Shown here: positions 30,646 to 52,755 of the stretch, one piece after another | How the letters are laid out: the number at the start of each line of letters is the position of its first letter | How positions within the stretch are numbered: the first letter of the stretch is position 1 | NCBI RefSeq assembly: GCF_039555335.1 | Contig: NC_092646.1 | Location: 20,295,029-20,359,028, forward strand | Reading direction: 5' to 3' | From: Amphiura filiformis | Lineage: Eukaryota > Echinodermata > Ophiuroidea > Amphilepidida > Amphiuridae | DNA: 64,000 bases | The notes under the pieces: model-generated | What the model saw: the letters and a program-made list of their open reading frames with translations, nothing else | Database searches by the model: none | What the model was told of the DNA's origin: nothing | Position numbers and translations under genes: made by a program

Positions 30646-31910
30646 ATGGAAACTTCAAATGTAGATACATCTGTGCCTTGTGGGTCCAGTAGATTTGCAA
30701 CAATTGACCCAGAGGAGTTTCAGGGATTATTGCAACATGCACCAGCCAGTGAACACACACGCAAGAGCACGGTGAAATGTGCCAACATTTTTAGAGCTTA
30801 TTTAGCTTCAAAAGGCTTGCCAACAAACTTTGAAGATTTTGAAGAGAAAAAGAAAGAATTAGCTGATATGTTGGCCAAGTTTTATGTAGAAGTTAGAAGA
30901 GAGGATGGCAAACCGTATAGAACAGGATCGCTAGTGAACATGAGGGCTTCGCTAAATCGACACCTCAGAAACACCCGCAGACAGATTAATATTATCAAAG
31001 ATCCAGTCTTCGCTCAAGCAAACGTTGCATTTTGGGCCAATCAAGAAAAGTTGAAAAGAGAGGGGTATGGAGAACCAAAACACAAAGTGCAGATCGATAA
31101 AAGTGATGTAGCAAAGTTGTATGAATCTGGTGTTTTTGATGAAGATACTTGGAAGGACTGCAGAATAAAGTTTGGTTTGAGCTGACACTATTCTTCGGCA
31201 ACCGTTGCAGAGATAAACAGAGGATGATGAAGAAGGATCACTTCTCTGTTGATACGGATGCCAATGGGAAGCATTATGTCTATCAAGCCAAGGATGTGGT
31301 GATTGGTAACAAGAATCCAGATGATGATAGCATTAAGTCAAGAGCAGATGGGAGAAGGTTGTACGAAACCCAAGCAAAATGGTGTCCGGTGGCATCATTT
31401 GAGAAATATATATCCAAGCTGAATCGTCGTTGCAATTCACTGTTCCAAACACCAATTGAAAGAAGTGAATTCAATTGGTACAAAGCAAGTAATAATCATG
31501 ACAAGCCTTGGTATAACAATAGCCCAGTAGCTGAGAAAACCCTTGGTTCATTCATGACGAAGCTTTCATTAGCTGCAGATCTTTCTAGGCGATACACTAA
31601 TCATAGTGTGAAAGTCACAAGTATCACGGTTCTCAATGAAATTGTGTTTGCAGCCAGGGATAACTTCAGTGCGTCTGGTCACCAAACAGTATCCAGTATC
31701 AACACCCACATTGGTCGACCCAATGATAGAGAGCAGCAGAAGTTACCTGGTGTTGTGTCATTGTCTAATAGTCAACCAGTATCAGAACCAAAGGAGAAAG
31801 AAGACATCACTGCTGACAAGCCATCAACATCTTGTGAGTCTCCATTAACCACAGCTCCTCCTGCTCAGTGTACAACTCAGGCAGCTGCACATACTTCCAC
31901 ATTGGACGAG
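30646..31910 (+). CDS. Exon 1: DUF3504 Crypton-type tyrosine recombinase domain, frameshifted
   Basis: It starts METSNVDTSVPCGSS; an in-frame stop lies upstream. The N-terminal core-binding part reads CANIFRAYLASKGLP...ELADMLAKFYVEV...GKPYRTGSLVNMRASLNRHL. The reading frame breaks near 31149: continuing DEDT into EGLQNKVWFELTLFFGNRCR requires one additional base. The catalytic half follows (NGKHYVYQAKDVV, PVASFEKYISKLN, ADLSRRYTNHSVKVTSITVL, SGHQTVSSINTHIG). By comparison with the family, the Arg in GNRCR is kept, the HxxR motif reads HSVK, and the expected nucleophilic Tyr position reads His. The exon ends with a Ser/Thr-rich tail and GAG|gtaaat. The frameshift may be a real mutation or an assembly error. 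Confidence 0.8.
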
Positions 31911-34900
31911 GTAAATTAATGCAGAATATGATAGGTTCAACAAGCAATAATGGTAACAGTAACACCTAGGTTTCATTATCATTGAGGTATAGGACTTTTT
32001 ATTTTTTCGGAGAAGAGCAGGTAGGGCAACTACTTGATTATATTTCTACATGTTCATACTACATGTACATACTCTGAAAATTTTAGAAAATTCGCACAAG
32101 TCCGTTTTTTTTAAATCACATTTTTGTTCCTAAAATGGGGGTTATAGCGCCCTCAACGGGCACTCTCTCCATAGGGCTACATGTCAAGACCAGTTATAGA
32201 CAAATGGCCCTAAAATAATTTCCTCAAATTTTGCATATGATGTAGATTTAACATCTGGAATGTAATGCAAGTGATGTCGTTGCTGCTCTTCTAAATTCAT
32301 TTTTAAAATGTCCGCCCCAGACCAAGGTGTTCACCACAGGGCCACAAGATACTAGAGGAAAAAATAGTTACAATCCTTTTAATCCTGGAAACTATAATCT
32401 TTTACTGTAAACTTTTGATGTCTTGCATGTTACACAACTTGCTTGGCCCTTAGGTGGAGAAATAAACTCTTATTCCATGTCCAGATATGTGACCCGCTCT
32501 GACAAAATCAGGAACACCTGAAGTCGCATTTTTGACATTTTCTGATTTAAATTGAAATGTGAGCACTAGACAATAAGCTTAAAAATGATAACAAAATTAT
32601 ATAAATAGCATCAATACTTTTCAAGATACAGTGTATACATGTAGATAATTTTGTAAATGATGCCATGATATTTTTGCCAAATTGTTAAATTATTCTTGAG
32701 TAATGGGCCAATTAGTTTCCTGCCTTGCACAGGATTGAATTGGGATTATCATAGATCAACTGTTAATTATTGGTTAAATAAATTTAAGAAGTTCATCAGG
32801 AAAAACATGTTAGAAACAATTTTCCCATCTTTTTCAGTCACAAACATTATCAAAAAATGGCTGCTATGTAAATTTTGTTTAATAGAAAAAAGTTTTTTCT
32901 TTTTTTTTTCTGATGGTTCAGGAAGTCCAGATGATCCAGGAACCATTGAAACAAATGGATTGCAAACACACACACAGGACCATGGTGAGCTGTGCCAAAA
33001 TGTTCAAAGCTTACTTAGCTTCAGAAGACTTGCCAACAAACTTTGAAGAGTTTGACAAGAAGGAGTTGGCCGATTCATTGGCCAAGTTTTATGTGCATGT
33101 AGAGGCTGGACGAGAGGACGGTAAACCGTACAAAGCGAAATCGTTATTTTACATACGAGCTGGTCTGAATCAACTCCTGAAAAATACAGGGAAAGAAATT
33201 GATATTGTCACGGACCCAATCTTCTCCAGAGCAAACCTTGTAATTTCAGCCAATGAAGCAAAGCTGAATAACAGTGTGATCAAAGCAAGGAATACCAGCA
33301 GTGGTCATCAGAATGAATTTAAGCATCGGAAATTGGCTGGTGTTGTGTCATTGTCTAATAGTCAACCAGTATCAGAACCAAAGGAGAAAGAAGACATCAC
33401 TGCTGACAAGCCATCAACATCTTGTGAGTCTCCATCAACCACAGCTTCTCCTGCTCAGTGTATTACTCAGGCAGCTGCACCTATTTCCATACTGGGGAAT
33501 GTGGATGAGGTAAATTAATGCACATACTGTACACAAGGTTACAATTCTGGTTTACCCTGTGGACACTGTGTTTTAAGTACAATTCTGGTTTACCCTACAC
33601 ACTCTGTATTTTAGGGTTGGGTTAGGGCTAAGATTAGGGTTGTAATTGTGTGCAGGGTATACCAGAATTATTCCGTTAAACTAACAAGCAATACTGGTAA
33701 CATTAAGATTTGATTAGAAACCCAAGTTGTGACTGAAACCTTCAGTAATAGTATTTACTAGCGAAAATTTTCGATGCCCCCCTTTTTTTAGATTCTTGAG
33801 TGTTCTGGAAAAAAAATTGGGTCAACATTTCAGTGAAATTGAGACACTTTGTGGAAATTTAAAAGATACCCTCTGGTCAATGTTTCTGATTAAAAAAAAA
33901 ATCACAATTGAAAGTAGGGCTTTTAAGTAATGGGTAATTATGTACTGACTGTAGTTTATTGTACTCGGGTACCTGATTGAATTTTCGGCGGGAATGCGGG
34001 TACCCGAAAATACAAAAAAAAAACACACCATAAGTATATCAGTACTTTTTTTGATGAATTTTTTGTGTTTTCTCAAAATTGCTCAAGTGGATGTAAGGGG
34101 TTTTGCAACAAAGCTCTTCATATGTGTTTGACATGGTCCTTCTTAATGGGCTGTTGTTCACGTTGCATTTTATATTAAAAAAAAGAAACAGATCTCACTG
34201 TTTAGGTTTTAGCCTAGGGCAAGCTTTCTTAAATCCCAAATGTCTGCACTTTTGAAATATTTTCAGCCCGTTGTGGAATTTTTAACCCAAATGAATGATA
34301 TTTCAGACTTTTTTCACCAGTTTGGGCTTTTTGCGTAGTACTAAGCGGTATCTGTAATAAAAAATATTTTAACTTTCAATATGTTTTCTTTATCTTCTTC
34401 AAATCAATGGTTCAGGAAGTTGAGATGATCCAAAAGAAGGCTGAGATAAGGCAGACCTCTACAGTAAAGAATGCCAGCAAGATGCTGCTTCTACTAGCCA
34501 GTATGACCAAGCAATCACAGAGGAAACAGGAGAATGGTACTAGCCAAGTCACATACAAACAGAACCTTAAGGTGAGATTGCATATTATGCAGTATCATTT
34601 AAAGTCATAATGTACGATCTTTTTTCAGAATTTACCTTTATTTTTTTCAAAACCGATTTTTTGGCATATTTGTAATACTTACACATGTTCTAACTTAAAT
34701 CTATGAGCAAACTGTCAAATTCGTCCCTATTTGTAGTAAAACGGATCGATTTTCTGTTGGTCCGACATAAAGTCATAATTTTTTAGATTATGACTTTATG
34801 TCGGCCACGATCGCAAACCGTAGTCTCCTACGCGGCCAGTTTGGTTACGCTCCCGCCACATGTGGAGGGAGCGTAACCAAACTGGCACAGAGGAGACTAA

Positions 34901-37900
34901 CTCTGAGGCCGCACTCGCTGTCCTATAATCCAAATAGTGCGAGATGTTTCGAGTGATAGAGGTGAAGTTTATGATGTTGTTTCTTTGCAAATTCCCAATG
35001 TTTTTCAAGGTCCAAATGTATTGGGAACTTTCATAATGATTGCATATTATCATTTTAGAAGAAAAAAAGAAAAATCTAAAAATTTAAAAAGATCGTACAT
35101 TAAGGCTTTAATCCTTGTAATGTGTTACAGGCGCAACATAAATAATGATTTGAAGCGCATGATTGATCCTAATAACTACAGAATGGTTTACATACTGATT
35201 GTTATTTGTAAATTCATACAACTAGTCCAATAAATTCCACTTACATGCAGATGTTTTGTAAACTACCAGTTTACTTTTTCGATGCTATTGTTGCAATGAC
35301 GATCTGTGTACAGCTGATGTTTTCTGCTGCTTGGCAACGGAGTTGCCAGTTGATTTTCCTATGGAAATCAGATCATCAAATATGTGACTTAAGTTGTATT
35401 GCCCCTCGTCTCTGTTCATGGTGTTGCCCTGCTTCCTAATGGTGATTGCCTCCTTGATCCACCTCTTGTACCTGTTACTCTCTTTGCCAACAATCCTAGC
35501 CTCTTTCCAGTCAATGACATGATTATTCTCTACCACATGATCTGTAATGGCAGATTTATGGACGACTGATTGGGAAGCCTTTCTGGTGGCTCTAGTTTTT
35601 ATGTTATCACCAATTTTCTCTGCCTCCGTTTTGTGTTCATCCAATCGCTTTCCGAACTTCCTACCCGTCTCCCCGATATAAGACAAATCACAATTTCTGC
35701 ATGGGATTGAATAGATGACGTCAGTTGAGTTATGCGGCTCCTGTTTGTCCTTGGGATGGACCAAAAGGTTACGCAAAGTACAATGTGGTTTCATGGCTGT
35801 GGCGATATTATAAGATTTAAACACCCTGGAGAAATCAACTGGCAACTCCGTTGCCAAGCAGCGGAAAACATCAGCTGTACACAGATCGTCATTGCAACAA
35901 TAGCATCGAAAAAGTAAACTGGTAGTTTACGAAACGTCTGCATGTAAGTGGAATTTTTTTGGACTAGTTGTATGAATTTACAAATAACAATCTACTACAT
36001 GTATGAACAGTCCTGATGAATATCTTCAAGAATTTATGGTTTACATACTGCATTAGGTTCTTAGAACCAGCATGATTGCAAACCACAGGCCTTGCCGTTT
36101 GAGGCCAGCGATCGCTCTCGCTCGCTCAATTTCTATAATTTGGTTCACCTCAAGTTTGAAAGTGACGTCAATGCTTCTTCACGGTTGCGATGCAAGCGTG
36201 CCAACAAAAAGCTCATGTACGCGAGCGTGTACACTTAGGGCGTTTAACTTTACGTGCATGATTTGATGCTGCGGCACGGGAAATACACACATACGTCACT
36301 ACCAAACTTGAGATGAACCAAATTTTCTACTCACCATAGACACTACGCTCCCTGGGGATCACCCAAAATTGAATCCAATTTTCATTCAAGTTTCAGCAAT
36401 TTCAATTTATCGTAATAAATTAGCCTTATAATCCCTGAAAACGAAAGAGATGGTGTCAACAGTGCGTAAGTGTTTCATACTGGTATGAATGATATTTCAG
36501 ACCTAGAGAGTGATTCAACCACTCGCCTATCATCATGCTAGCGAGGGATTGGCCACTCGCCTTTAAAATCTAGAAGGCAAGGCCTGACAACCAAGGTGCT
36601 TATGATGTTGGTCATGAACCGTACATTGGGGTATCCCCTATGGAAGTCACTACCCTAATCTGAAACACATACAGAGGTGCCAATTTCAACTGGAGTTGGA
36701 AATTTAGGTAACCCCAATTGAAATTCACACTCCCTGTGTGGAAAATTAAGGCCAGTCTTTTGACAGTATTGGATGGGCACTTAATAATATCACACTTTGC
36801 TTGTTGTAAAGTCACTGGGTGGGCGCTAATAGGGGCATGGGCAGTAAATGGAACAAATACGGTGCCAGAGAAATAGGCAGTTTCACAAGGTCGAGGTGAA
36901 ACAAATTATTTATGATTATATGTAATTATGAGAACAAAATACTAGTGACAGTAATGAGAGATTAATATCACTGATTTCAGTTGCAGAGTATAATATTAAA
37001 GGGCAAGTGGCACCTCAAGACATTTTTGTGCAAATATTGTACAAGACATTTTCACAGTGCAGAGAGGTACAGAAGGCATCTGAGAAACCATGTCAAAAAA
37101 TACCAGCAGAGATATTCACACAGGACAGCAACACATGAAGGTAAATACCCAGCCCATTTCAGTTTATTTTTTATTTTTTAGAATAACATGTGTCTGATGC
37201 AGCTTCCAGTCCAGTCTAGTCCTGTTCTAAGGATTTTCAGAAATAAAAGAAAACTCTATGCAAGGCAGTCGGACTAATAAATTGAGCCATGCCCAATATG
37301 GGCTCAAATTACGCTATGATATATGCCAATATGGACTGTTTATGTACACATCACAATAATTCTGTGGGGTGTAAAAACACGCGTAAAAGGCTGATTTATC
37401 TGTACGCTGGTGATGCAGCACGGTACCAAAAAGCTCAATTTTGAAAGTTTGAGATGGTAACTTTTAAGGCAGGCAGGTAGCTTTTCGGAGTTACCAGCCC
37501 AGCTGGAGGTAACTTTCTATTACAGGTTGCTGGAAGGTGCAGGGCACAATGTTGTCTGATTGGGATGGGACTGGAATGGGCTATTCCAGTTGAAATTCAC
37601 ACTCCCCCTGTGGAAGATTTTGGAAATATCTTCCACAGGGGAGTATGTTTTTCAAATGTAGTTGGTCAAGGTTAATCATTTTGAAATCCATACTCCCCCT
37701 GTATTATGGCTTTACCTTAATCTTCCACAACCAGAGTGAGTATTTCAAATGGAAGCTCCCCAATTGTCAATTCTATTTGAAACCATTACTCCCTCTCTGG
37801 AAGACTTAAGTTAAATCTTCCACAGTGGTAGTGTGGATTTTAAATGGAATAGCCCAATTTTCAGGTCGGGACTGGGTTCCTGACGGGTTGGGTAATCCAG

Positions 37901-40900
37901 AATGCAGTCAAATCATTTTAGCCCTATTTTCCAGCTGTAGTGTGTCTCGTCCTAAGTTGAGAGTAACGTCACGCTGGATTTTGTATATTGGAAGATTCAA
38001 AATTGTGCACACTAACCTAATTCGCGGAACGTATACACAAGCATAGAAGGGCGATTTGTCCGTATGCTGGAGCCACAACTGCATGTACTGATTCAAATCT
38101 ACCACTGCAAAATCCAACATGGTGTTATCCCGACTTGAGACAAGACACACTATTTTTACGCAGTTTTTATCAGACCAATAGAGGGTGTACCAAATGTAAA
38201 TACGTGTAAACCACAGAGGTCTATTATAAACTAGAGGCGATCTACTGTACATGTTCACATAACCTCAAACTTATTTACATAATTTTGGATACCAGCAAGC
38301 TTCAAATAAGCAGGCACCCAGGAGCCATTTACCCAATAATATAGTCATAACACCAAAATCATATGAACCAGGTTCTTCATTTTTTTATTAAATAGAGCCT
38401 GGTAGTTAAAGCAGGTTTTGTATTTAATGTGTATATTGAAATTTAAATAATTCTTTGCTCTTTAAAAATGGCTCCTGGTTCACTAGATAATCTCAGGACC
38501 AGGAGCTGTGTGGCTCCTGCTTATTTTGAGGCTTGGATACCAGGATCGTATTCTGATTTGTTAAATTCTAATTTGCACATTTTTGGATACCTCCATATTT
38601 GGGTTTACCTAATTAATTATTAATGACCCGTACATTGTTTATGTTGTGACGTCATTAGAGCTTGTCACTTGTCCTTTGTGAACGACAAACATTTGCATTT
38701 TTCCTATAATGTTATATTGTGAAATACCATACATGAATAGTGGAAGTGTTAATTTTTATATTAGGAAAATATTTCTGCTGATGACTCCATGTTGACAATG
38801 GCAAAATGTGCTGTATTAATTCTGGAAAGGGTCTGGTGATTTGTGCGTGATCATTATTTTTCAGATGATTTCATTATCGTAACTAGAGTTTGCATATTAA
38901 AAAGTGAACTCCGATGTACATGGTGCGAAAATTCTTGCCGTACCTATTTTGATTCATTTATGTTTCAGCTGGGATGGTTACATTTGCGGCCACACATCGG
39001 TATACATATGACCAGTTCTACCTGTATATAGAATTCTGTGATATAAACCCATCTATATCTAGATGAGTTGACTTCTGACGTTAATGCCTGGCAGTATGCA
39101 CGCATCATCACAATTTCCATTGTTTTTTGTCTGGCAGTATGCACGCGCATCATATTTTTTTCAGGGCTTGTGTTTTTAAAACTCTCACCACATCACAATA
39201 AAACTATTGAACAATGTAGTGGTTGTATGGGGTTCACTCAAGCATATCCATATACCGCTCCCTTGCCTTTGTTGATAAACATTGATGTCAACTCATCTAT
39301 ACAGAGTGAACTTTACTGTGTCCAAACCTGCCCAAAACCACCACTATCATCATGATAATTTCATCTTATAAATTGATTTTTTTTTCTCTCTTAACCTATT
39401 CCTTCAGTGAAGACAGACAGGCAAAGTGCTTACAGAAGAATAGGCTACTTGATTCCAAACTCACATGGTCCAGGGTATATCTTAGTGAAGGTATGATATG
39501 TGAACACAATCTGCTCCATGGGGCCCAAACGAGGCATTTTTGAAAATTGATTTACTGGAAATATTACCTTAAATACAAACATTAGGCTATCATATACTGG
39601 AAACACCACTTGGTTCTAGAGTTATAAAGTTTTGTGATGTCTATTTTTTATGTATTTTATTGTTTTGTACTACATATTTTTGACTTTATCTCAGTTTCAA
39701 ATTCACTGCACCGTTAATATGCCATTTTGGTTTGTTGCGGAGGGCAAATAGTGTACCTCGTATATTGGATAAAGCCTGAAATGGAACGATAATTTAAGCT
39801 TGAGTGCTACAAAAGTTTGCGCAGTTTTTGGCACAACACGTTACACACACAACGCAAACAACTGCACACTTTGAATTGGAAGTTTGCTGGGCGCATGGCG
39901 AAATAATCCAGAGCTGTACACTTTATGCCCACCATGAGGGACATACATTTTTGTACCAACATGATGGAGTCTCTACTCTTTGGTTTGCATTGGCATATGC
40001 ACGGAATCCCAATCAGCCTACATCTTACAAAATACATCAGCAGAGTGCAACGCTATCGTAAGTGCAGTAGAATGCAATAGCTGCCATTTGCAATATTTCA
40101 ATAAATGTACTTAATTTTGATCAATAACACTAGAGAAAAACACCCAACTACATGTAAAGGTGATATCTTGGGTTAGCTTAGTGGCCATCAGGGAAAGTAT
40201 ACAGAACATCAACACTTTGCAATGAGCATGATGAGGGGATTGTGCTGTAAACAATAGGTGTTTTACAAAAGGCAGCTATTACATTTTACTGCACTTATGA
40301 TAGTGTTGCACTCTGCCGACAACATGTACTTCTCTCTTCACTCTGTCTGTATTTTTACCCGAGTGCCATCTGCTTTTTCTCAACAGATACGTGTTGCAGA
40401 TCCAGTTATAAACAAATCAATGGAGGAGGGAGTGACAAGTCAAGTGCAAAATAGTAAGTATTATAAAAAAAAAATTGATGATTCACACACACTTTTAATC
40501 AATGCAATACAGTATCGTCAAGCCCATACATATATTATATTGGGAGGGTGCGGGCTTCCAAATAGGGGACCTTCTTTTCGAATTAAAAAGTGCGCTTATG
40601 CTGATTTTTGGTAAAAAGTGCGCATAAACCCCCTAAATACTGCCCCTTTTTTGGACTTTTTTTAGAAAACTTGATCACCAAAACATGGACCTGAAAAAGT
40701 TTGGAAAAGACATGCTAGAGTAGCTTAGCTGAGTGCTGAAATATTAACAGTTTATCATTCTCGATTTCTTACCCGTCAGGCGGGCGGGCACTTTTGAAAA
40801 ATTACCTGCCAGACATCAAAGTTACCCGCTCCTGGCATCCCTGCTTTAGTATGTTAAAAGTACCTGATAACATAAAATCCTGATAACACAAACTGAAACC

Positions 40901-43900: not shown

Positions 43901-46900
43901 ATATTCCAAAAACATTAATGTGTGTGAGAAATTTTGGTAGCTGGAATTCTTTATGCAATAATTCTTTATGCAACATTTATATCAACATTAACGAAAAAAG
44001 ATATTTTACAAGTACCGAGCATCATCTCACATGCAAGCTTTCATTTTCAAAATCGTGAAGGTTTTCAAATTTGAACAAAATCTAATTAAATGTTTTGCAA
44101 AAAACAGATTGTTTAAAAAGGATGAAAAGGATTTCACCGAACAAAATATGAAGCCCGTTAACAGTTAGACGCTAGTGCGCATTGTGTTGAATGACTCAAA
44201 CTTGGAATGAAGTGAATTGACGCATGCGTTATGTAATCGCTCATTTCTCTGCAATCAGTCAACTGATTCCAGTAAAATTAACGTATGAGATGGAGAATAA
44301 GATGGGCTACATGTTGATTTTTCGATTTTTGTATTCTGATGTCTATTTCTCGACTTACGTCCAAATTTATTCGCCCGGTAATTTTTTCGGGGACACCCTG
44401 TATTGTACACAACTTTGTCAATTAATTTTCTCTTTGTCAATTAATTTTCTCTTTGTCACACTTAACTTCATTTTGTTTTCCCCCTTTGCTCCCCAACTGC
44501 AGAACTCATCTGTGCACTCTGCAAAAAAGTAACTGGCCAAAAACCTAGACGTCACTTCATGACTATGCATGCCATCTACGACCAAGCAGAGATAGAAAGC
44601 CTTTACGAGGAAAGCTGCGAGTTGAGCAGTCAACTGGTGAGAAGAACAAGAAGTGACTATGTAAGAACCTCGAATTCGTACCAGAAGCAGACCTGCCCAT
44701 ATTGCGGCAAACTTGCCAAGCGCATGGTAGCGCACATCAAAGGATCGCACAAAGATTGTGATGCAAATATTTTGAAGGAGTTCGATATGAGATGGCGAAG
44801 GAGTACAAACAAAGATAGTAAGTGAAATACATGGAGCTATTTTCAAAACTCTAGCGAGATCGATAAATTCAGGTATCATGTGAAAGTATCCATGATTTTT
44901 GGTCACAAATGTGATTTTTGGTCACAAATCTGATTGTGATGATTCACTATGGCAGCAAAATTACAGGGCTTTGAATCCTTCAAGATCTAGCTGGAAAAAG
45001 GCGCTATATAAATCGGAAATTTATTTATTATATATAATGTGATTTTTGGTCAAAATGTGATTTTTGGTCAAAAATGTGATTTTTGGTCAAAATGGTCAAT
45101 TACACGATATATTTACTTTAATCACCAATCAGAATGGAGCTTTGCAAATAATTCACCCCAATTTTTTTGTGTGGTGAAATTATTCTAACAATGTTTTTGA
45201 TTGGACCAATTGATAATGAAAACTTCTTTTTGGCCAATCGGCAGGTAGTTCTCATGGGGTTAACTACAAATATGGGTTAAAAAGTGATTTCATGTTCAGT
45301 AAAAATAAGTGCAGCAAGTCAAATTTTCTCATGGACAACTCATGAACTACTCTTCAACTCCATACAAAGAGTGTGCAATGAGGTGTGGACTGAGGCAGAA
45401 CTGTTTGAATGGCCCTTGTTTATTGTCTTCCGCCAGTCTTCTGGTAAAATAATTTTTATTTGGTTTTCCTAATCCTTAATTTTGAACTTCTTTGACAGAA
45501 ACTCAAACAGTGCCAAGTACCACAGCGGTAGCAACTCAGAAACGTCAACTGGACACAAGTAACAATGGACCTCATAGTAAGTGAATGAATTAATAGTATG
45601 GGCTACAGGGTGGATCAAACATACCTGTACCTAACTTTACTAATTGTTTTATGACATCTTGAAACACCCTGAGTAAGGATTCAACCTGCTCTCTTGATTT
45701 AGTCCTTTGCTTCCCAAACGTTTTTGAAGTAGTAAACAAGATGAAAGAATAACAAAAACTATAGAACACATTGTATCATTAGTTAGTCGTGGATTATTTT
45801 TGTACAATAGGTTAGTGGCATTGAATGTTAGTTTGTAAAAATTGTCTCTCATGTCTGGTGAGGTATTGTCCTTTATCTCCTGAACCACTTGACTGTGATC
45901 GTCTTCATCAAATCACAGCCACCAGATGACCTTTGTATTTCCATGATGCCAGGGATCAAACTGGGGAAATCGAGTTGTATGGCTTTGAGATTTGGCAGTT
46001 CAGCTTTCACTTGAACCATGATCAACTGCAGCTGCCTTTCTATAAAGACTACTAAGGCATGCACGGTAGTAAATAGTGTCTATTACAGGTCAGGTCCCCT
46101 TTTGACAGTTTACCCTGGAGTTGTACGTCACCAATTTTCCATGCGGTCTCATTCACTATCTGATTAAGGCCTAGATAGAGCTTCTCTTTAATTCCTGCTT
46201 GTCTCCAGACTCCCTACAAAAGAAGCACTTTGTATCAGAAGATTCAATGTTTTAAGTTGATGTTTCTCGAGACTCACAAGCCCTTTCAGAGCTCATCTAC
46301 CTTGTTTTCACTGGGTTGTTTTACTCTTACTCTCCAACACCCCAGGTGGGGTAAGACGAAGAGAAAAAAATGTTGTACGCTGAGGTGAACTGCTTAAATG
46401 CCACAAAAGTGGTCTTTGATGCTCTGGAATGCATTTTGTCTCTAAATAATCCAAAATTCACCCCAGTAGTGACTTTAGGTGGTATATTTCAGTCCATGTG
46501 AGAAAAAGATGGTAAATATTCCTCAAGATGGTGATGGGAGATTTTGATGGTCAGATGGATGATGTTCAGAAATGTATTCACCTCGCACATGCGCACTGGT
46601 GTGTTACAGTACTCCTCACGGCCTTTCTCTTTGCCCAATCCCCCGTCTGTTGGTTGACAGCGATTCTGCAATTTTTATGCCATACAGCATTTTAGTTTTC
46701 ATTAGTTCTGCTACTGTACGTACCCCTCGCACCACCACCGCAACTAGAGGTATATCATCTACTGTATCAAAGCTGGGCAAATCACCATACTCACTGAGGT
46801 CCAAGATATTTTTCAGCAGTTCTGTGTAACAAGGTTCTATTTTTTTTTTTTTTGCCACACGATTTTACAGATGATGCGAGATCCGTAATTCATTCATCAC

Positions 46901-49900
46901 TGACTGACAAATTCCAATCATGTTTATCCATGCATCAAACTCTTGTTGCCATCAATAGAGGACCTGGAAATAATAATAAAGCATTATAAAGTATGCTATC
47001 AATGGATTCAAACATAAGATTGATTCATGATTGATACAATATTGCCAATTACAGGTACCTTGGAATTCATATTTAGAACCCCTTGTAACCCATTCATATA
47101 ACCTCCTATCAAATAAACTGTGCCAGAAATGACTTTCCTACCTCCAAATTAGTACAAATTGATATGTCACACAAGTTTTTAGCTCAAATGGTCCAAAAGT
47201 TTTAAATAGTGCATATTTTAAAGATGGTAGCCAGCAGCCATCTTGGATTTGATCATCAAAATGGCAATAGATTCCCAAAATTAATACCTTACCCTAAATT
47301 AAGCAAATTTCAACTGTTTACATGTGTTTTTAGGCAAAATGCTCCAAAAGTTAGAGAAAACCATATTTTGGTTACTGATTAGCATGAAGAAGACCATATT
47401 TTGGTTACTAATTAGCATGATTTTTTTATGCTAATTTGGGATTTCTAAGCATAGAGTCAGAGTAAGTTTTCATGAATCATTTCCTCTTGCCCCAAGAACA
47501 CCCATGCCAAGCGGGGCCATAGCACTATAAAATGCAGTGTTATCCCCTTAGTAAGTCTACTAACATTGTTTTGTTTTTTTTCTTACTTTTTTGTAGGTTT
47601 ATATAGTGCCAAAAGAGCAAGAACAGAAGTGGAAACAACTCATCGACAAGAAAAACCAAGTGGTAATACCTATGGTGAGTGAATAATTAATGAAAGACTT
47701 TTGTAAAAGTGGTTCAAATGGCAAGAACCATATTTATCTAGTTTTACTTATTTAATTTAAAAACTGCAGTGTACTTTTTAAAATCACATTGATCTGATAG
47801 GAAATGAGTCAAGGAGGCCAATAATTTATCTTTCCATAGGTTTTGTAGTTTATAACTTAAGGCCAAATAAGAACTATTACTTTGCCAAAACGGAAACTTT
47901 AGCATGATTGTAGTGCATATGAATACAACTGAAATCTATTTAGGGACAGACTGGCACGTTCAACTGAGCCTAAACTGATGGCCAACAAGCGGCCATCGTG
48001 CCGTGTCATCGGCGCTGTAGATCGTTTAGAAATATGTCACATGTTGCCTTGCGTGATGCAGAGAAGGTCTCATTGAAGCCAATTAAGGGTAGACGAGGTA
48101 TTGTTGGTCGAAGCAACCTAAAAATCGATTTTTATTATCTAGATCAATATATTATTGAAAATTAACACCTTATTGTTTTGCAAAAGTTCATTCTACAAAT
48201 CGTATAATTTGCAAACTTGCTTAATTTATTGTTGTTAATGAGTTATGTAGGTTTTACAAAAGTGTTGTTGTTTCAGCCCTCTTTACAACGTAACTCAAGA
48301 ACCGCAGCACCTATAAAAGTATATCTGTTATTTTAATTATTCTACACACTCGCTATGAATTGAGCAATACAGTTTTTGCCAAAGCTAACTACCATTCGTA
48401 AGATGCTGTGGCCTACCATATCACAACAGTTTAAAATAATTAATAACCTTAATGCACCATTTTGTATAACATAATTTTTATATGTATTCCTAATTATTAT
48501 TCCTCCTCTTCTTCTGCTTATTCTTTTTTCCAGCTGCCCAATCAGTCTCAAACATCGTGCAGCCCTTTGTGAAATTTCCCAACCAGTCCGAAGGTAAAAG
48601 CTCAACTAGTACTGGAAATGATTCACAATGTTCAGTGTGTAACAAGTACCATACTGATGTGATTGATAACTACAAGTGTCAAATTGCTCATCTACAGGAC
48701 GCTATCAAAGATGAGGAGACGAAACGAGCAGGTGCCATCAAAGATGTGGAAAGGAAACGAGCAGCTCATCAACAACATGCCATCAAAGATAAGGAGAAGA
48801 AGCAAGCAGGTGAGAGAGATGGAAAGAAAGAACAATTAGGCTTAAAAACATTGTTTGATTGGTGTGACATAAAAAATTAGTGTAGGTATAGGTAGGGAAT
48901 TTTTTTTTAACTTTTAAAGCTGTGAATTGTGTAAATTGCAATTTGAAAAAGGCTTTGGAACTTTTTTCTTCTTTTTCTTTTTTTAATTAAAATATCGGGT
49001 CGGGCCTTCTTTTAGGGTAAGTCTGGTTACGCCAATCAAACAATTTTTTCAGGCCTTATAGGTTAATTACAAAGCTGTCAAATTCGGCAGTACGGATATT
49101 CCCACTGATGAGTTTGGAAAGAAAATGGTCCAAAATCATTTGAAAAACTACTCGATATCTCTCACCTGTGGTTTACCTGTATGATGAACATAGCGATCCT
49201 AATTTTAGCTACAAATCATGGCAACTTCTCACGCTCAAAGAGCATCGATCATTTTAATCTTCAAGGGAATAATTTTGTCTGAAAGTAGTGAGGGAGGGGG
49301 TTGCCGTGCCGAGTTTCAAAACGAAAGTTGTTATTGAAATACATGCGCCGGGCCGAAGTAAACAAATAATTCATTCACCTGAGGACAACATGACCATCTC
49401 TTCTTTTACATAAAATCCTAAAATGATATCATACACACATTTTGGGCACCAATTTGTACACAATTTGCTTATATTTTAACTTTTATATGAAACTATAGCG
49501 GCATTGCATTGCACAGCATCATCGTAAGGTTATCTTTTAGCATCTTTGGTGCTCTGACAAAAAAATTGGCCAGACAGTGTCTGACCAGAAATAGCAGTTT
49601 TAAACTTTTATTTGCGTAAATTATTAAACACCCATTTTTTTCCTTTAAAGTGGGGTGGGGGGAGAATCAACTTGCAACATGAACGTTAGGCCTACATTTT
49701 TTGAAGATTTGGCAAAACAATTTTGTTTACAATCATAACATGATAATCAGGGATGGATTTAAGCGGTGGCCTTGCGCCAGTTGATTTTGCCTCGGGTCAG
49801 TAAACTTCCATCAGTGCTGACCCTGTGGGCCACTAGATTGATCCTGATATAACTCATATGAGACAAGATATTCTCTCGGTTGGGGCCACGTCACATCCAT

Positions 49901-52311
49901 TCATGCATTGGCGTGAAAACAACTTATCGCATATTTTTATTTGCAGAGAGTCGAACCTGGCACAATAGTGTGATAGCTTGTGATACACTCCAGAGTTCAG
50001 TGAATGCGAATGTTGTTTTCACTCCAGTGCTATTGTCAGCCAGTTTATGCCCGGATGTCCGACCGACAGAATAATCAGTGATGGACACAATTGTCTACTC
50101 CACTTTTCTGCTCCACTTTTGAAAAGTGGACTTTTGTTCAAAATGACCTTTTTTTTAGCAAAAGGGCTAAAAGACTTTTTTTTTCGCTTGCTACGCTCGC
50201 AAATGGGACTTGTTGGGTCAAAAAAGGGGATTTTTTTTAATTTGGCGATCTGCGCCCCGGTTGCGGGCCTGGGAAAATGCTTCTTATTTGCACTTTTTGC
50301 AGTAGAACATATTAAAATAGCTAGGCCAGTAAATTTATTGCAGGGTCAGTAGATTTGCCCTTTCACTGGCCCAGTAGAAAAGTGAAACCTAAGTTTGTCC
50401 CTGAAAAAAATATGCATGCATATCAATGCAATGTCATGACCGACAGTGCCAGATGGAGAAAACATCAATGTAGCACTGACCACTCGTGCGCTGGAGATCA
50501 TAATTAAAATGAACGCCAAGATCAGGTAAGCTTACCTTGTACATGTACAAGGTAGGCTTAAGATTTCACCTAAAGACCACTGCTTCTGTGTGGCTGTCCA
50601 GCTGCCTGTCACTCTTGACTGTAAATTGATCATGAAAGCCTAAGCTTTAAATTTTATGTTTGTTTGTTTTTATGTTTGTTTGTTGCATGCATGACTATAG
50701 ACCTTGCCTTGATGATGAACTACGATAATTTGCAGTGGCGAGTGGAGCAGAAGGTAGAGAAACACACAGAGGATCATCCAGAATGTCATTGTGGTTGTTG
50801 GGAGTGGACTGCTGCCTGTACTAATGTGGGGTATGGTGTCATGTATATGGCAGGAAGAATGCTGGGTGCTCACAGGGCCTCATATATGGCTTTCAACCAG
50901 TGCGTTGACCTTCCTCATGATATCGTTCATGTGTGTAAAAGGAAAAAGTGTGTGAACCCAGATCACTTGTCCCATGAAGAGCGTGATGTCAACATGGGAA
51001 GACAGACATGCAATCTAGTAGGTCATTGCACCGGCAAACACATATCTAAGGATGGCAAAAACAAGACTTGCATTTTTATTAAATGTAAAAAGGTGAGTTT
51101 TTCTTCACTTTGTGGCTACATATTCAATGGTGTGGAAATATTTTTGGAGTTTGCTTCACACAATTCATTGCAACTTGGAGTTCAGTTTGACTCTAGCTGT
51201 GATGAAAACTTCAAAATCATACCCACATAATGTGCAATTGTGACCTGCTACCATGAAATCAGCGTAAAGTCGCAAGGTGTTAGTCACTCAAAACGCCCTG
51301 GCTACTGCGTTGGTGTTCACTCACCTGTAAAAGCCACTAAGTATGTCTGTATGTCCTTTGTGAATTGGGGTACAATGGGCCATTCACGAAGGATAATACT
51401 ACTGGCTTGTACCGGTGGCGGTAAACAAAGAACATCAACTTAGTCAGACCAAATATCTCGAAACTACCAACTCATCAAAATGAGCATAAAGTTGTGGCGA
51501 CTTTATGCTGATTTCGTACGTGGTAGCAGGTCACAATTATTTTAAACTTGAAAATTGGGGGTGGTTTCACATGAGTTATTCAACTAGGATTTAGCTGTCC
51601 CTTGACGTAGACATTTTCTTTATGTACTCTGTTATGGCAATCATCTCTCCGCCTGTGCAGGAAGGCAGTAAATTTTCATCGTCAACCGTGTAATTTAATG
51701 GGATTATTTTGAAATTTTAAAACGCTTGAAATATCACAAACAAATAGGCATGTGTAAATAAATGATATAAATACAAGCTAAAACCGTTGGGGTTCGATAA
51801 TGAACCCCACAAAACTAACCGACTATATTGGAAAATGCCGTTCTCCTCCCCCATTCGCAAAAAGTATTTTAAAAAGTCAAGTCCCAAAATATCACAATTT
51901 GTAAGCATAGCGAGCCGAGCAGCAAAATTAGGTTTTTTACACTGTTTTAGTCAAAAAAGGTCAACATTTTTGGGGAAAAGTCCACTTTTCACAAAATCCC
52001 CCTTTGGAAAAAAGTCCACTTTATCAAAATCATCACCCCCCCCAATAATCCTGCGTATGGGCCTGCCTGCTAAAAATGATGCACCAAGTCTCTTTTGTGG
52101 CCTCTCATTTGAAAACTATAGATCTTTAGAACTTTGGAACTTTAGACCCAGCCCCCCTCCCCGGGTGAAGGACGTACATACTTGTACAACTTGGATATAA
52201 CAGGATATCATTTGTCAGGACACTCCACCATGATTGAGTGTTATTCGTGGAGTAGTGCTGCATATTAATTTTCTATGTCCTGTTTTTTCTCTCCTCCAGA
52301 TCAAACAATGA
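30646..52311 (+). CDS. Crypton-type recombinase / C2H2 zinc finger / HNH nuclease fusion gene (13 exons)
   Basis: The model joins 30646-31910, 32922-33509, 34416-34571, 36981-37140, 39408-39490, 40387-40453, 41933-41983 (or -42010), 44503-44817, 45499-45576, 47597-47674, 48534-48809, 50701-51092 and 52300-52311. All introns are GT-AG, and the phases match at every junction (0,0,0,1,0,1,1,1,1,1,1,0). One frameshift near 31149 must be corrected. Product: about 1,173 residues. Domains in order: DUF3504/Crypton-like tyrosine recombinase (about 40-350), partial second copy (430-530), vestigial third copy, C2H2 finger, two further C2H2-like fingers, charged helical repeats, and an HNH/zinc-loop His-Me nuclease domain at the C-terminus. 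Family knowledge: Crypton recombinases were domesticated in ZMYM, QRICH1 and KCTD1 proteins. DNA binding in the nucleus is inferred. The full combination is not one I know. Confidence 0.75.
31963..32329 (+). mobile_element. CACCTAGG-ended repeat element, copy 1 (intron 1)
   Basis: About 370 bases from CACCTAGGTTTCATTATCAT to CGCCCCAGACCAAGGTG are repeated in reverse orientation at 52378-52755 with high identity. The two ends are weakly inverted (CACCTAGG against CACCTTGG). No coding capacity and no clear target duplication. Confidence 0.85.
32922..33509 (+). CDS. Exon 2: partial duplicate of the recombinase exon
   Basis: Acceptor ...TGATGGTTCAG|GAAGTC, donor GAG|gtaaat, 196 codons, phase 0 to 0. 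It contains a second core-binding segment (CAKMFKAYLASEDLP, ELADSLAKFYVHV, GKPYKAKSLFYIRAGLNQLL, DPIFSRANLVISANEAKL). It then jumps to the tail GVVSLSNSQPVSEPKEKED, skipping the whole catalytic half. The tail DNA is nearly identical to exon 1 (31740-31905), whereas the 5' part is clearly diverged. This suggests recent gene conversion or separate duplication of the tail. Confidence 0.8.
33536..33671. mobile_element. Small inverted-repeat element (ACAATTCTGGTTTACCCT)
   Basis: ACAATTCTGGTTTACCCTAC is inverted at the right end (GTGCAGGGTATACCAGAATT). The first 18 bases also occur once more as a direct copy at 33540. It lies in intron 2. Confidence 0.6.
34416..34571 (+). CDS. Exon 3: vestigial third copy of the duplicated exon
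   Basis: It has 52 codons, phase 0 to 0, acceptor GGTTCAG|GAAGTTGAGATGATCCA and donor CTTAAG|gtgaga. The acceptor and first codons copy those of exon 2 (GAAGTCCAGATGATCCA). TSTVKNASKMLLLLAS lines up with HRTMVSCAKMFKAYLAS. The remainder is a basic, polar linker (TKQSQRKQENGTSQVTYKQN). It is a remnant of the core-binding domain rather than a domain of its own. Confidence 0.7.
34603..35107. mobile_element. TTAA-flanked MITE with two internal perfect hairpins
   Basis: The ends AGTCATAATGTACGATCTTT and the inverse of the right end (AGCCTTAATGTACGATCTTT) match at 17 of 20 positions. TTAA flanks both (34599-34602 and 35108-35111). Inside lie two perfect stems: 17 bp at 34762-34804 (CCGACATAAAGTCATAA) and 20 bp at 34835-34886 (GCCAGTTTGGTTACGCTCCC) with a 12-base loop. 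It is a Kolobok- or piggyBac-like target; no transposase. It sits in intron 3. Confidence 0.88.
35198..36035 (-). mobile_element. Truncated Penelope-like element with inverted arms and 15-bp target duplication
   Basis: ATGGTTTACATACTG flanks the insertion (35183-35197 and 36036-36050). The outer ~160 bases on each side (35198-35356 and about 35829-35990) are inverted copies at roughly 95 percent identity. The GIY-YIG coding sequence lies between them on the minus strand. Inverted terminal arms from partial second copies are known for Penelope-like elements. GTAAACT-GGT-AGTTTAC followed by GAAAC and GTC (35914-35938) resembles the 3' part of the hammerhead ribozymes carried by this group. Confidence 0.9.
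35285..35857 (-). CDS. Penelope-like C-terminal GIY-YIG endonuclease fragment
   Basis: On the minus strand the open frame reads VFKSYNIATAMKPHCTLRNL, DVIYSIPCRNCDLSYIGETG, RKFGKRLDEHK, ITDHVVENNHVIDWKEARIV and YKRWIKEAITIRKQ. This is the Penelope-type GIY-YIG nuclease: the paired Tyr motifs, the PCxxC cysteines, the Arg of GKRLDEHK and the Glu of HVVENN are all present. The reverse transcriptase is missing, so this is a 5'-truncated copy. The fragment itself is uninterrupted over about 180 codons, which suggests fairly recent insertion into intron 3. The ATG is not a real start. Confidence 0.92.
   Translation of the reverse strand: MATELPVDFSRVFKSYNIATAMKPHCTLRNLLVHPKDKQEPHNSTDVIYSIPCRNCDLSYIGETGRKFGKRLDEHKTEAEKIGDNIKTRATRKASQSVVHKSAITDHVVENNHVIDWKEARIVGKESNRYKRWIKEAITIRKQGNTMNRDEGQYNLSHIFDDLISIGKSTGNSVAKQQKTSAVHRSSLQQ
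36136..36325. mobile_element. ~190-bp inverted-repeat element (TTTGGTTCA-CTCAAGTTTG)
   Basis: AATTTGGTTCACCTCAAGTT at the left is matched by the inverse of AACTTGAGATGAACCAAATT at the right, with a GTGACGT block inside each arm. It lies in intron 3. Confidence 0.75.
36676..36760. mobile_element. Partial copy of the GGGCTATTCC-family element
   Basis: CCCAATTGAAATTCACACTCC and CTGTGTGGAAAATTAAGGCC correspond to an arm of the elements at 37577-37856 and 42848-43031. The second arm is not recognisable. Confidence 0.5.
36981..37140 (+). CDS. Exon 4: C2H2 zinc finger
   Basis: Acceptor CTGATTTCAG|TTGCAG, donor CATGAAG|gtaaat, phase 0 to 1. The translation contains a canonical finger, CKYC-x12-H-x3-H (FLCKYCTRHF...YRRHLRNH), followed by a basic stretch (VKKYQQRYSHRTATHE). 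Sequence-specific DNA binding is the usual role of such a finger. There is only one in this exon. Confidence 0.85.
37577..37856. mobile_element. Palindromic MITE (TGGGCTATTCCA family), intron 4
   Basis: The termini TGGGCTATTCCAGTTGAAAT and the inverse of the right end (TGGGCTATTCCATTTAAAAT) match. Each arm continues with CACACT and a GGAAGATTT-type block, and there are further internal inverted pairs. Related copies lie at 36676, 42848 and 53596. Confidence 0.85.
37857..39407. other. Intron 4, remaining sequence
   Basis: No further exon with acceptable splice sites and coding bias was recognised here, and no complete element. Short open frames on both strands are unsupported. Confidence 0.4.
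39408..39490 (+). CDS. Exon 5: short linker exon
   Basis: A strong polypyrimidine acceptor (CTATTCCTTCAG) precedes 83 bases ending GTGAAG|gtatga. Its phase (1 to 0) is exactly what is needed between exons 4 and 6, which is the main support. It encodes VKTDRQSAYRRIGYLIPNSH and GPGYILVK. No domain recognised. Confidence 0.65.
40387..40453 (+). CDS. Exon 6: short acidic linker exon
   Basis: Acceptor TTTTTCTCAACAG, donor AATA|gtaagt, 67 bases, phase 0 to 1. It encodes IRVADPVINKSMEEGVTSQV plus QN. No domain. Confidence 0.65.
40946..41241. mobile_element. Inverted-repeat element (GTCTTAGCCAG ends), intron 6
   Basis: AGGTCTTAGCCAGGCATGCG and CCACCCG at the left match the inverse of the right end (AGAGTCTTAGCCAG and ACCACCCGTC). 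The interior includes GACGGGTGGATTTAATGG. No coding. Confidence 0.6.
41933..41983 (+). CDS. Exon 7: linker with two tandem in-frame donors
   Basis: Acceptor GTTATTTTTCAG|GTACCT, phase 1 to 1. Two donors, AAGA|gtaagca at 41984 and AAAA|gtaagca at 42011, differ by 27 bases, so both keep the frame. The short form encodes STSEVGEAEIGNKPPLK; the long form adds nine residues (SKQQIKSSK). Which is used cannot be told from sequence. Confidence 0.7.
42131..42842. mobile_element. ~0.7-kb element with poly(A)/GTGTTTGTTTGCCCAGACA ends
   Basis: TTAGGC, an A-run and GTGTTTGTTTGCCCAGACA at the left recur inverted at the right (TGTCTGGGCAAACAAACAC, T-run, GGCCTAA). The subterminal sequence contains CGACCGACTCC and, inverted, GGTCGG. 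The interior has no supported coding frame. It occupies intron 7. Confidence 0.82.
42848..43031. mobile_element. GGGCTATTCC-family MITE, third copy
   Basis: ATATTCCAGTTGAAATCAAT at the left and GGATTTCCACTGGAATAGTC at the right are inverted. The internal GACTTGACCTTAATC and GATTAAGGTCAAGTC form a second inverted pair. It abuts the previous element. Confidence 0.75.
43353..44400. mobile_element. 1.05-kb mariner-like non-autonomous element, TA-flanked
   Basis: The ends CAGGGCGTCCCAGAAAAAAT and, inverted, CAGGGTGTCCCCGAAAAAAT lie between TA dinucleotides (43351-43352 and 44401-44402). The arms match discontinuously for about 220 bases (AAGTCGAGAAATAGACATCA; TTCATTCCAAGTTTGA). CAGGGTGTCCC-type ends and TA targets are typical of the mariner/IS630 group. 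No transposase frame remains. It lies about 100 bases upstream of exon 8. Confidence 0.9.
44503..44817 (+). CDS. Exon 8: two C2H2-like zinc fingers
   Basis: Acceptor CCCCAACTGCAG, donor AAAGATA|gtaagt, 105 codons, phase 1 to 1. The first finger is ICALCKKVTGQKPRRHFMTM-H (CxxC...H-x4-H with a ten-residue loop). The second is CPYCGKLAKRMVAHIKGSH (CxxC-x9-H-x4-H). Between them is a charged helix (QAEIESLYEESCELSSQLVR). The tail KEFDMRWRRSTNKD is basic. The spacing is atypical of classical KRAB-type arrays, so a structural or protein-binding role is possible. Confidence 0.85.
44940..45035 (+). mobile_element. Short retroelement tail (GGCGCTATATAAAT)
   Basis: GGCTTTGAATCCTTCAAGAT and AAAGGCGCTATATAAATCGG followed by TTTATTTATTATA resemble the shared 3' tail of many SINE and LINE families in aquatic animals. 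The head is not recognised. Confidence 0.5.
45036..45115 (+). repeat. Short tandem repeat GTGATTTTTGGTCAAAAT
   Basis: Three to four 18-19-base units lie in tandem, with related single units at 44895-44930 on the other side of the retroelement tail. The array may have been split by that insertion. Confidence 0.7.
45499..45576 (+). CDS. Exon 9: Thr/Gln-rich linker
   Basis: Acceptor TTCTTTGACAG|AAACTC, donor CTCATA|gtaagt, 78 bases, phase 1 to 1. It encodes KTQTVPSTTAVATQKRQLDT SNNGPH. It is a low-complexity linker. Confidence 0.7.
45650..46980 (-). pseudogene. Unidentified minus-strand coding pieces within intron 9
   Basis: Several protein-like minus-strand segments occur in order. QEFDAWINMIGICQSVMNEL (near 46,950), YTELLKNILDLSEYGDLPSF and VAVVVRGVRTVAELMKTKML (46,850-46,640), GVWRQAGIKEKLYLGLNQIV behind a good acceptor (46,210-46,110), VQVKAELPNLKAIQLDFPSL and GGCDLMKTITVK behind another (46,040-45,890), then QEIKDNTSPDMRDNFYKLTF (45,890-45,780). 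At least one frameshift near 45,885 and in-frame stops near 46,970 interrupt them. I do not recognise the family. It is either a decayed duplicate of a multi-exon gene or a host gene nested on the opposite strand. Confidence 0.5.
46981..47596. other. Intron 9, remaining sequence
   Basis: A 27-base direct duplication (ACCATATTTTGGTTACT..TTAGCATGA, 47,368-47,422) is the only structure noted. No exon recognised. Confidence 0.4.
47597..47674 (+). CDS. Exon 10: basic linker
   Basis: Acceptor ACTTTTTTGTAG|GTTTAT, donor TATG|gtgagt, 78 bases, phase 1 to 1. It encodes SLYSAKRARTEVETTHRQEK and PSGNTY. AKRAR could act as a basic nuclear-localisation-like stretch; this is only a possibility. Confidence 0.7.
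47675..48533. other. Intron 10
   Basis: No element or additional exon was recognised. Confidence 0.4.
48534..48809 (+). CDS. Exon 11: cysteine pair and charged helical repeats
   Basis: Acceptor TTCTTTTTTCCAG|CTGCCC, donor AAGCAAGCAG|gtgaga, 276 bases, phase 1 to 1. After AAQSVSNIVQPFVKFPNQSE comes CSVCNKYH...YKCQIAH, a cysteine/histidine cluster of unclear type. Three related repeats (AIKDEETKRAG, AIKDVERKRAAHQQ, AIKDKEKKQA) then follow. They are strongly charged and probably helical, possibly a short coiled coil. If the donor is not used, the frame stays open to a stop at 48878-48880 (GERDGKKEQLGLKTL...). Confidence 0.8.
48810..50700. other. Intron 11
   Basis: Repeat fragments include a GGGTCGGGCC/poly-T piece (48,950-49,000), a stretch with AAAAGTGGACTTTTGTTC related in style to 51,950-52,060, and a near-perfect palindrome TACCTTGTACATGTACAAGGTA at 50,532-50,553. 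No additional exon could be supported. Confidence 0.4.
50701..51092 (+). CDS. Exon 12: HNH / His-Me-finger nuclease domain with zinc loop
   Basis: Acceptor GCATGACTATAG|ACCTTG, donor AAAAAG|gtgagt, phase 1 to 0, about 130 codons. Motifs in order: HCGCWEWTAACTNVGYG, AHRASYMAF, LPHDIVHVCKRKKCVNPDHL and ERDVN. They match the zinc-binding-loop HNH domain found in many homing and phage endonucleases (CWxWxG...GYG...AHR.SY...H.C.n..CVNP.HL). The expected metal and catalytic positions (H of IVH, C-x4-C, N-P-x-H-L) are present, so nuclease activity is conceivable. A further Cys/His-rich tail (CNLVGHCTGKH...CIFIKCKK) follows. Without the donor, the frame runs on 46 codons to 51230. Confidence 0.88.
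51236..51538. mobile_element. MITE with TTGTGACCTGCTACCA ends, intron 12
   Basis: AATTGTGACCTGCTACCA, then AAATCAGCGTAAAGTCGC at the left are matched by the inverse of the right end (with CGTACG inserted). AATT borders the right end. No coding. Confidence 0.85.
52300..52311 (+). CDS. Exon 13: last coding exon (Ile-Lys-Gln-stop)
   Basis: The acceptor TTTTCTCTCCTCCAG leads to ATC AAA CAA TGA in the phase set by exon 12. If exon 12 is skipped, exon 11 joins here in phase 1 instead. The frame then stays open to 52493, giving DQTMKTQSVSNSTQHLKGQP and a tail encoded largely by the repeat at 52378-52755. The acceptor is good, but the tiny coding part makes this the least certain exon. Confidence 0.5.
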   Translation: MKQ

Positions 52312-52377: not shown

Positions 52378-52755
52378 CACCCTGGTCTGGGGCGGACATT
52401 TTACAAATGAATTTAGAAGAGCAGCAACGACACCACTTGCATTACATTCCAGATGTTAAATCTACATCATATGCAAAGTTTGATGAAAAATGAACGAGTC
52501 AGTTTTATTTTAGGGTCATTTGTCTATAACTGGTCTTTACATGTATCCTTATGGAGAGAGTGCCCGTTGAGGGTGCTATAACCCCCATTTTAGGAACAAA
52601 AAATGTGATTTAAAAAAAACTGACCTGTGCGAATTTTCTAAAATTTTCAGAGTATGTAGTATGAACATGTAGAAATATAATCAAGTAGTTGCCCTACCTG
52701 CTCTTCTCTGAAAAAATAAAAAGTCCTATACCTCAATGATAATGAAACCTAGGTG
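52378..52755 (-). mobile_element. CACCTAGG-ended repeat element, copy 2 (inverted relative to intron 1)
   Basis: This is the reverse-complement partner of 31963-32329, sharing essentially the whole length with scattered differences (CACCCTGGTCTGGGGCGG start, CCTAGGTG end). It lies just beyond the last exon, so the pair brackets most of the gene. Confidence 0.85.

Follow-up and report, generated by a model that had tools for sequence, protein, structure and literature searches.

Crypton-type tyrosine recombinases have been domesticated in KCTD1, KIAA1958, ZMYM2/3/4, QRICH1, and WOC. In the sections of PMC3212892 that deal with domestication, all seven human domesticated DUF3504 domains are described as having lost the second Arg and the Tyr, and the domesticated recombinases are proposed to retain roles in binding DNA or proteins; HNH is mentioned nowhere in the main text. 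HNH_3/I-HmuI-type domains are found in eukaryotic mobile DNA in the polinton-like viruses of protists, where some are fused to other domains; in the portion of that report describing these genes, HNH and tyrosine recombinase genes occur together in two elements only, and no fusion between them is described (PMC12220804). The relevant part of a 2017 review assigns at least two of the six homing-nuclease types to eukaryotic transposable elements, naming GIY-YIG and PD(D/E)XK but not HNH (PMC5718144), and a further paper concerns, in its corresponding part, prokaryotic casposons (PMC4046053). The MH1 domain has been interpreted as a degraded homing endonuclease (Grishin 2001, as cited in the pertinent passages of PMC4999995 and PMC4256011). 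In a search of open-access literature, no paper was found on DUF3504 together with HNH, on a Crypton-HNH fusion, or on zf-His_Me_endon; by title, papers on PF05551 were confined to Naegleria, none pairing the His-Cys box with metazoans named an animal gene, and none on HNH in metazoans was on topic.

The locus described here lies in a 64-kb window (the whole stretch of DNA that was analysed) and resembles the domesticated Cryptons in its QRICH1-type N-terminal domain, DUF3504-like core, and additional zinc-binding domains. By motif spacing it may also have lost the second Arg and the Tyr, which would agree with the human domains (PMC3212892). Unlike those proteins, it has a doubled N-domain and an HNH domain at its far end, and neither the exon pieces searched nor the joined exons 2-13 matched BTB or the MYM-type zinc fingers of the ZMYM/WOC proteins. 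The polinton-like viruses also hold HNH and tyrosine recombinase genes in the same elements, but these are not host genes (PMC12220804, in the same portion). The best reading of the region is one multi-exon gene that includes the HNH exon (Table 1), a reading held with moderate confidence. The whole series probably encodes a single host protein; the doubt centers on the splice that leads into the HNH exon, the weakest in the chain.

Table 1. Exons of the gene model, in window coordinates
Exon	Coordinates	Strand	Description
1	30646..31910	+	ATG; QRICH1-type N-terminal domain 30646-31140; frame break; DUF3504-like core 31143-31910; donor GAG/gtaaat
2	32922..33509	+	Second QRICH1-type domain and a tail nearly the same as the exon 1 tail; without recombinase core
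3	34416..34571	+	Short; 5' border is a copy of the exon 2 border
4	36981..37140	+	Single C2H2 finger, C-x2-C-x12-H-x3-H (spacing read from sequence)
5	39408..39490	+	Linker; chained in test A at penalties 16 and 18 (not 20), in test B at 16 only, in test C at 14 and 16 only
6	40387..40453	+	Linker; chained at most penalties, with acceptor 40304 at some instead
7	41933..42010	+	Linker; chained in all tests, except test C at penalty 20
8	44503..44817	+	Two C2H2-like pairs, CALC...HFMTMH and CPYC...HIKGSH; chained
9	45499..45576	+	Linker, phase 1-1, optional; exact borders chained only in test B at penalty 16
10	47597..47674	+	Linker that includes a basic stretch, KRAR; acceptor 10.1, donor 10.0 bits
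11	48534..48809	+	Charged, repetitive; acceptor 10.1, donor 11.7, coding +29.2 bits
12	50701..51092	+	HNH/His-Me finger domain; acceptor 2.6, donor 12.1 bits
13	52300..52311	+	Ile-Lys-Gln-stop; acceptor pyrimidine-rich, in phase; too short for coding support

Exon borders were set by hand on the re-read DNA, and the exons were then joined and translated (30646-52311); the domains, the splice-compatible chain, and the residue conservation reported below were all obtained by computation. Joined exons 2-13 (32922-52311) form one stop-free frame of 760 residues with a single terminal stop, and all 11 introns between them are GT-AG. The sequence-only reading had claimed 13 exons in one frame after one correction; this holds for exons 2-13 and is weakened by the frame break in exon 1 and the poor acceptor of exon 12. 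Several borders have alternatives: the exon 4 acceptor was placed at 36987 or 37058 in the chaining runs described below, exon 7 has another donor 27 bases earlier that leaves the phase unchanged, and in one run the loosest penalty divided exon 8 into two parts. Exon 13 contributes three residues only. A Pfam search of the joined protein returned no domain in exons 5-7, 9, and 10, and the exon 11 segment is probably helical. For the zinc fingers proposed between the two enzyme-derived parts, the Cys/His spacing in exons 4 and 8 is plausible for C2H2 fingers, and the Pfam matches are under the cut-offs both for the exon 4 finger (zf-C2H2_4, E 9e-4) and for the exon 8 pairs (zf-Di19, E 6e-4).

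The analysis drew on the window itself, on phage, viral, prokaryote, and plasmid sequences, and on profile and structure libraries; intron style and domain types suggest that the host is an animal. G+C is low over most of the window, which is rich in repeats. No tRNA and no Rfam match at gathering score were found in the 64 kb, and another ten ORFs, all but one in the flanks, contained no domain at or above the cut-off. The repeats include eight perfect copies of a 60-base tandem repeat (1315-1795), a large array of a 41-base satellite with a strand switch near 24040 and strong GC skew (20676-24620), and about 58 copies (adjacent rows of 48.4 and 10.1) of a 42-base repeat that is open in long frames (61121-63618). 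Inverted copies of one interspersed repeat, with pieces 88-99% alike, lie at 31963-32329 and 52378-52755 and adjoin the 3' side of exon 1 and of the exon 13 stop.

The chain was compared with chance using a custom exon-chaining program that combined general splice-site weights with a codon model and was run at several penalties. Test A took exons 1, 2, and 12 as the training set and scanned just the interior (34.6-50.7 kb). At penalty 18, the best chain scored 65.7, compared with at most 10.3 in 40 dinucleotide shuffles, and the reverse strand, at 34.3, was likewise above the shuffles. This chain recovered exons 5, 6, 7, 8, 10, and 11, exon 4 with a different acceptor, and, in one run, one spurious last exon; looser penalties gave many spurious exons (26 exons in all at penalty 10). 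In test B, exon 12 was left out of the training and the run was extended beyond it to 52330. Penalties 18 and 20 both linked exons 6, 7, 8, 10, 11, and 12 in phase, the former together with one spurious exon; lowering the penalty to 16 brought in exons 5 and 9, a portion of exon 4, and two spurious exons. Both the test A score against the shuffles and the in-phase joining of an untrained exon 12 count in favor of one gene. Test C was trained on exons 8, 11, and 12 only and covered the upstream half at four penalties. All four recovered exon 3 and, as two pieces, exon 2; exon 4 (other acceptor) and exon 7 dropped out above penalty 18, and exons 5 and 6 above 16. Here, the reverse strand scored 31.0 vs. 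32.0 for the plus strand at penalty 18, and 25.0 vs. 24.8 at penalty 20; taken by itself, the chain score is therefore modest evidence for the upstream half. The near-equality is probably due to a minus-strand frame resembling GIY-YIG. The chain is thus well supported downstream and only moderately upstream. The frame in question (35229-35959, minus strand; 213 residues) lies in the intron between exons 3 and 4, has a sub-threshold GIY-YIG match (E 9e-4), and sits between 155-base inverted arms that are 90% complementary; it may be a fragment of a mobile element, Penelope-like or of another kind.

A zinc-loop HNH nuclease had been read at the C-terminal end of the protein, and this identity for exon 12 is strongly supported. 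Exon 12 alone scored 30.9 bits against zf-His_Me_endon (PF05551), above the cut-off of 27; the same domain was just under it in the joined protein (26.0 bits), and HNH_3 was below its own (13.1 vs. 24.8). The profiles anticipated by the sequence-only reading were recovered in part: zf-His_Me_endon exceeded its cut-off in the isolated exon, and DUF3504, the zf-C2H2 types, and HNH_3 did not. HNH families in PHROGs matched exon 12 (PHROG 3593, E 5.8e-16), as did 834 of 50,697 phage records at E <=0.01; among the 20 matches listed, identity was 29-36% and up to 93% of the domain was covered. Searches with back-translated exon 12 peptides found no relatives in viral contigs and, in prokaryote genomes, 14 pattern matches of which none was confirmed. 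A phmmer search of exon 12 against the PDB returned only DNA polymerase gamma, rejected as a chance match (E 1).

Residues C32, H76, C78, C83, H88, and N97 (numbered from 50703) are present in 42 of 42 aligned sequences; H76, C78, C83, and H88 were set by the pattern used to fetch the sequences, and C32 and N97 were free of it. We take H76 to be the catalytic His, N97 the metal-binding Asn, and the Cys3-His group the zinc site. Outside the fetch pattern, exon 12 agrees at eight of nine well conserved columns, and in the viral alignment it matches 20 of the 27 columns conserved at >=85%. The one miss among the nine is position 93, which is Glu in exon 12, Thr in 40 of 41 viral relatives, and Ser in the other. 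This substitution separates exon 12 from phage HNH endonucleases of the HNH_3/PHROG 3593 type, as does the fact that in the best reading it is not free-standing. H98, C100, C105, H110, N119, and C125 of I-PpoI, a His-Cys box enzyme, are spaced as H76, C78, C83, H88, N97, and C103 of exon 12 (H98-L-C100...C105...H110...N119-x-G-R-x-x-C125 vs. H76-V-C78...C83...H88...N97-x-G-R-x-x-C103). The proposal that the metal and catalytic positions look intact is borne out for the catalytic His, the metal-binding Asn, and the first zinc site at I-PpoI spacing. C103, C109, H113, and C123 are also present, with spacing that appears unlike that of the second zinc site of I-PpoI and in a region of low model confidence. 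The locus differs from I-PpoI in having no group I intron match (none from Rfam in the window) and in placing the domain in the C-terminal exon of a split nuclear gene.

The exon 12 structure was modeled from the 42-sequence alignment (pLDDT 79, pTM 0.67), giving a confident core and a poor C-terminal end; a single-sequence fold (pLDDT 34) was not used. Compared with viral models, it gave 96 matches at <=0.001, the best being viral HNH proteins (E to 1.5e-8, TM about 0.6). In the PDB, I-PpoI ranked first as a weak match (E 2.9e-3, TM 0.40), followed by I-HmuI, with none at E 0.001 or better; TM-scores by model length were 0.35-0.41 for I-PpoI, 0.44 for I-HmuI, and 0.45 for NFIC (E 0.22). Profiles built from exon 12 with six phage relatives, or with 41 viral relatives, likewise had I-HmuI and I-PpoI as their best solved structures at marginal E values of 0.01-0.1. 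As the model was folded from viral HNH sequences, fold and sequence do not count as two independent lines of evidence. Smad MH1 and NFI were the next PDB matches after the nucleases, both weak (E 0.22 and above), and exon 12 retains the nuclease residues. Those residues are the reason for suggesting that the domain cuts; alternatively, by analogy, it might bind DNA without cutting, as MH1 does.

The main rival to one gene is a pair of adjoining genes, in which exon 11 closes a Crypton-derived zinc-finger gene (stop at 48878) and the HNH domain belongs to a gene of its own that starts at the ATG at 50691 or close to it. This arrangement is possible, though on the unlikely side, and it turns on the exon 11-12 junction. 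The acceptor at 50701 is poor, and a rival acceptor 35 bases on, at 50736, scores 2.9 bits and is out of phase with exon 11. The exon 11 frame stays open for 22 codons past its donor before reaching the stop, and this tail has a mildly positive coding score (+2.4 bits). The HNH frame also has ATGs ahead of the domain at 50691, 50712, and 50715, and four copies of ATTAAA, a weaker poly-A signal, occur between exons 11 and 12. Against two genes, the exon 11 donor is strong and exon 12 joins it in phase, and AATAAA is absent between the two exons (the next copies are at 51757 and 52715). In addition, the coding score of exon 12, +19.8 bits with that exon untrained, falls to -3.3 past its donor, which is also strong; exon 12 therefore looks spliced rather than like an intronless ORF. 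The exon 11 run-on ends in QLGLKTLFDW, a candidate PIP-box-like sequence.

In the recombinase-derived half, a DUF3504-type domain had been claimed for exon 1. The QRICH1-type domain is above its Pfam cut-off of 30.8 bits in both exon 1 (33.4) and exon 2 (34.2). The DUF3504 core in exon 1 is under its cut-off of 29.7 (21.3 bits, E 3e-4), as it is when the two pieces of the exon are bridged by X in a read-through (20.7 bits). A Crypton origin is supported by the paired QRICH1-type domains together with this sub-threshold core. Reading the core by its motifs places an Arg in GNR (from 31197) and a His in NHS (from 31599). A Lys occupies the expected second-Arg position and a His the expected Tyr position, nine residues after the His of SGH; the DUF3504 profile match ends before both, and we place them by motif spacing, not by alignment. 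The core appears catalytically dead: the single open recombinase frame of an active Crypton is absent, and so, apparently, is the intact R-H-R-Y. Three pattern matches to the core in viral contigs yielded no confirmed relative, and there were none in the PDB at E 1 or in PHROGs at E 0.001. One viral contig (L007) considered as a relative of exon 2 proved to be a chance antisense match inside apparent phage structural genes, and SPMIP11 (exon 1), COQ7 (exon 11), and other weak Pfam names were rejected as under cut-off.

Exons 1 and 2 are tandem copies (N-domain alignment z 55). Over 99 aligned codons, their N-domains have a dS of 0.78 and a dN/dS of 0.31 (bootstrap 0.16-0.51), a value that covers the time since duplication, and the two copies appear to be under constraint. 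Over 53 codons (31740-31898 vs. 33330-33488), their shared tail has 94% nucleotide identity, with a dS of 0.08 and a dN of 0.05. It is thus about 10 times less diverged at silent sites than the N-domains, a pattern suggestive of gene conversion or of a tail exchanged at a later time. No clear constraint is apparent on the tail; a longer alignment gave a dN/dS of 1.02, which includes poorly aligning residues and was not relied on. The 5' border of exon 3 is identical to that of exon 2 at 25 of 30 bases, and no other site in the window exceeds 19 of 30; at the protein level, exon 3 shows no significant similarity to exon 1 or exon 2 (z 0.8 and 1.0).

In exon 1, one frame stays open up to a stop whose last base is 31185, and a second is open from 31143; the interruption near 31141-31185 is in keeping with the single correction of the sequence-only reading. 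Since the recombinase continues from one piece to the next, the interruption is a frame break, and it leaves the DUF3504 core out of frame with the exon's own start. A tiny intron in its place seems unlikely: the donors look poor by eye, and its removal would take out conserved residues. The break may be an assembly error. If it is real, it fits a decaying gene, formerly as described but since reduced to a pseudogene whose first exon is broken and whose tandem copies have collapsed, an explanation that overlaps the one-gene and two-gene readings and is unlikely. The absence of the core from exon 2, and of anything but the border in common between exons 2 and 3, also fits decay. Exons 2-13, however, have no stop or frame break, and the N-domains show constraint, although this may predate a recent decay. 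A mobile Crypton-like element armed with an HNH nuclease is highly improbable: a recombinase-like domain and a phage- or homing-type HNH domain do share the region, but it has many introns, a broken core, an apparently lost Tyr, and a coreless second copy, and the recombinase is the only recognizable domain of animal Cryptons in the account of them by Kojima and Jurka (2011, PMC3212892, in the part concerned).

One gene remains the preferred reading. In its favor we count the open frame of exons 2-13, the chaining results, the strong donors of exons 11 and 12 with no AATAAA between them, the QRICH1-type domain found twice, the constraint on the N-domain copies, and the HNH identity of exon 12 by Pfam, PHROGs, phage records, and model. 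Against it we count the exon 1 frame break, the DUF3504 and C2H2 matches under curated cut-offs, zf-His_Me_endon under its cut-off in the joined protein, the weak PDB fold matches, the Glu at position 93, and, at the junction, the weak exon 12 acceptor and its rival, the stop at 48878, the ATGs from 50691, and the four ATTAAA signals.

For this single gene, we infer from the sequence one transcript, DNA targeting, and nuclease activity. A Crypton-type tyrosine recombinase would have been captured into a multi-exon nuclear gene, presumably of an animal; its N-terminal exon would have been duplicated in tandem, and fusion would have added exons for zinc fingers and, at the C-terminal end, an exon for a His-Me finger nuclease. 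The recombinase part, with a core that has the first Arg but Lys and His elsewhere and with a coreless second copy, would serve only to bind DNA or partner proteins; this role is suggested because it was proposed for DUF3504 by Kojima and Jurka (PMC3212892, in the sections on domestication). The C2H2 fingers would add DNA contacts, and the HNH domain would nick or cut DNA at sites picked by the rest of the protein. A dead recombinase half joined to a possibly live nuclease half fits the residues. The fullest form of this proposal is unlikely: one expressed animal protein would unite a dead Crypton recombinase with C2H2 fingers and with an I-PpoI-like nuclease that is still live. Such a protein would be a targeted DNA cutter owned by its host and assembled from mobile-DNA enzymes of two unrelated kinds, and it would show in a living species the nuclease stage, not yet degraded, that has been proposed for Smad MH1. 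With a nuclease as partner inside one protein, DNA cutting would return to a domesticated-recombinase gene, and if the HNH domain is active in an animal nucleus, its target would be directly testable.
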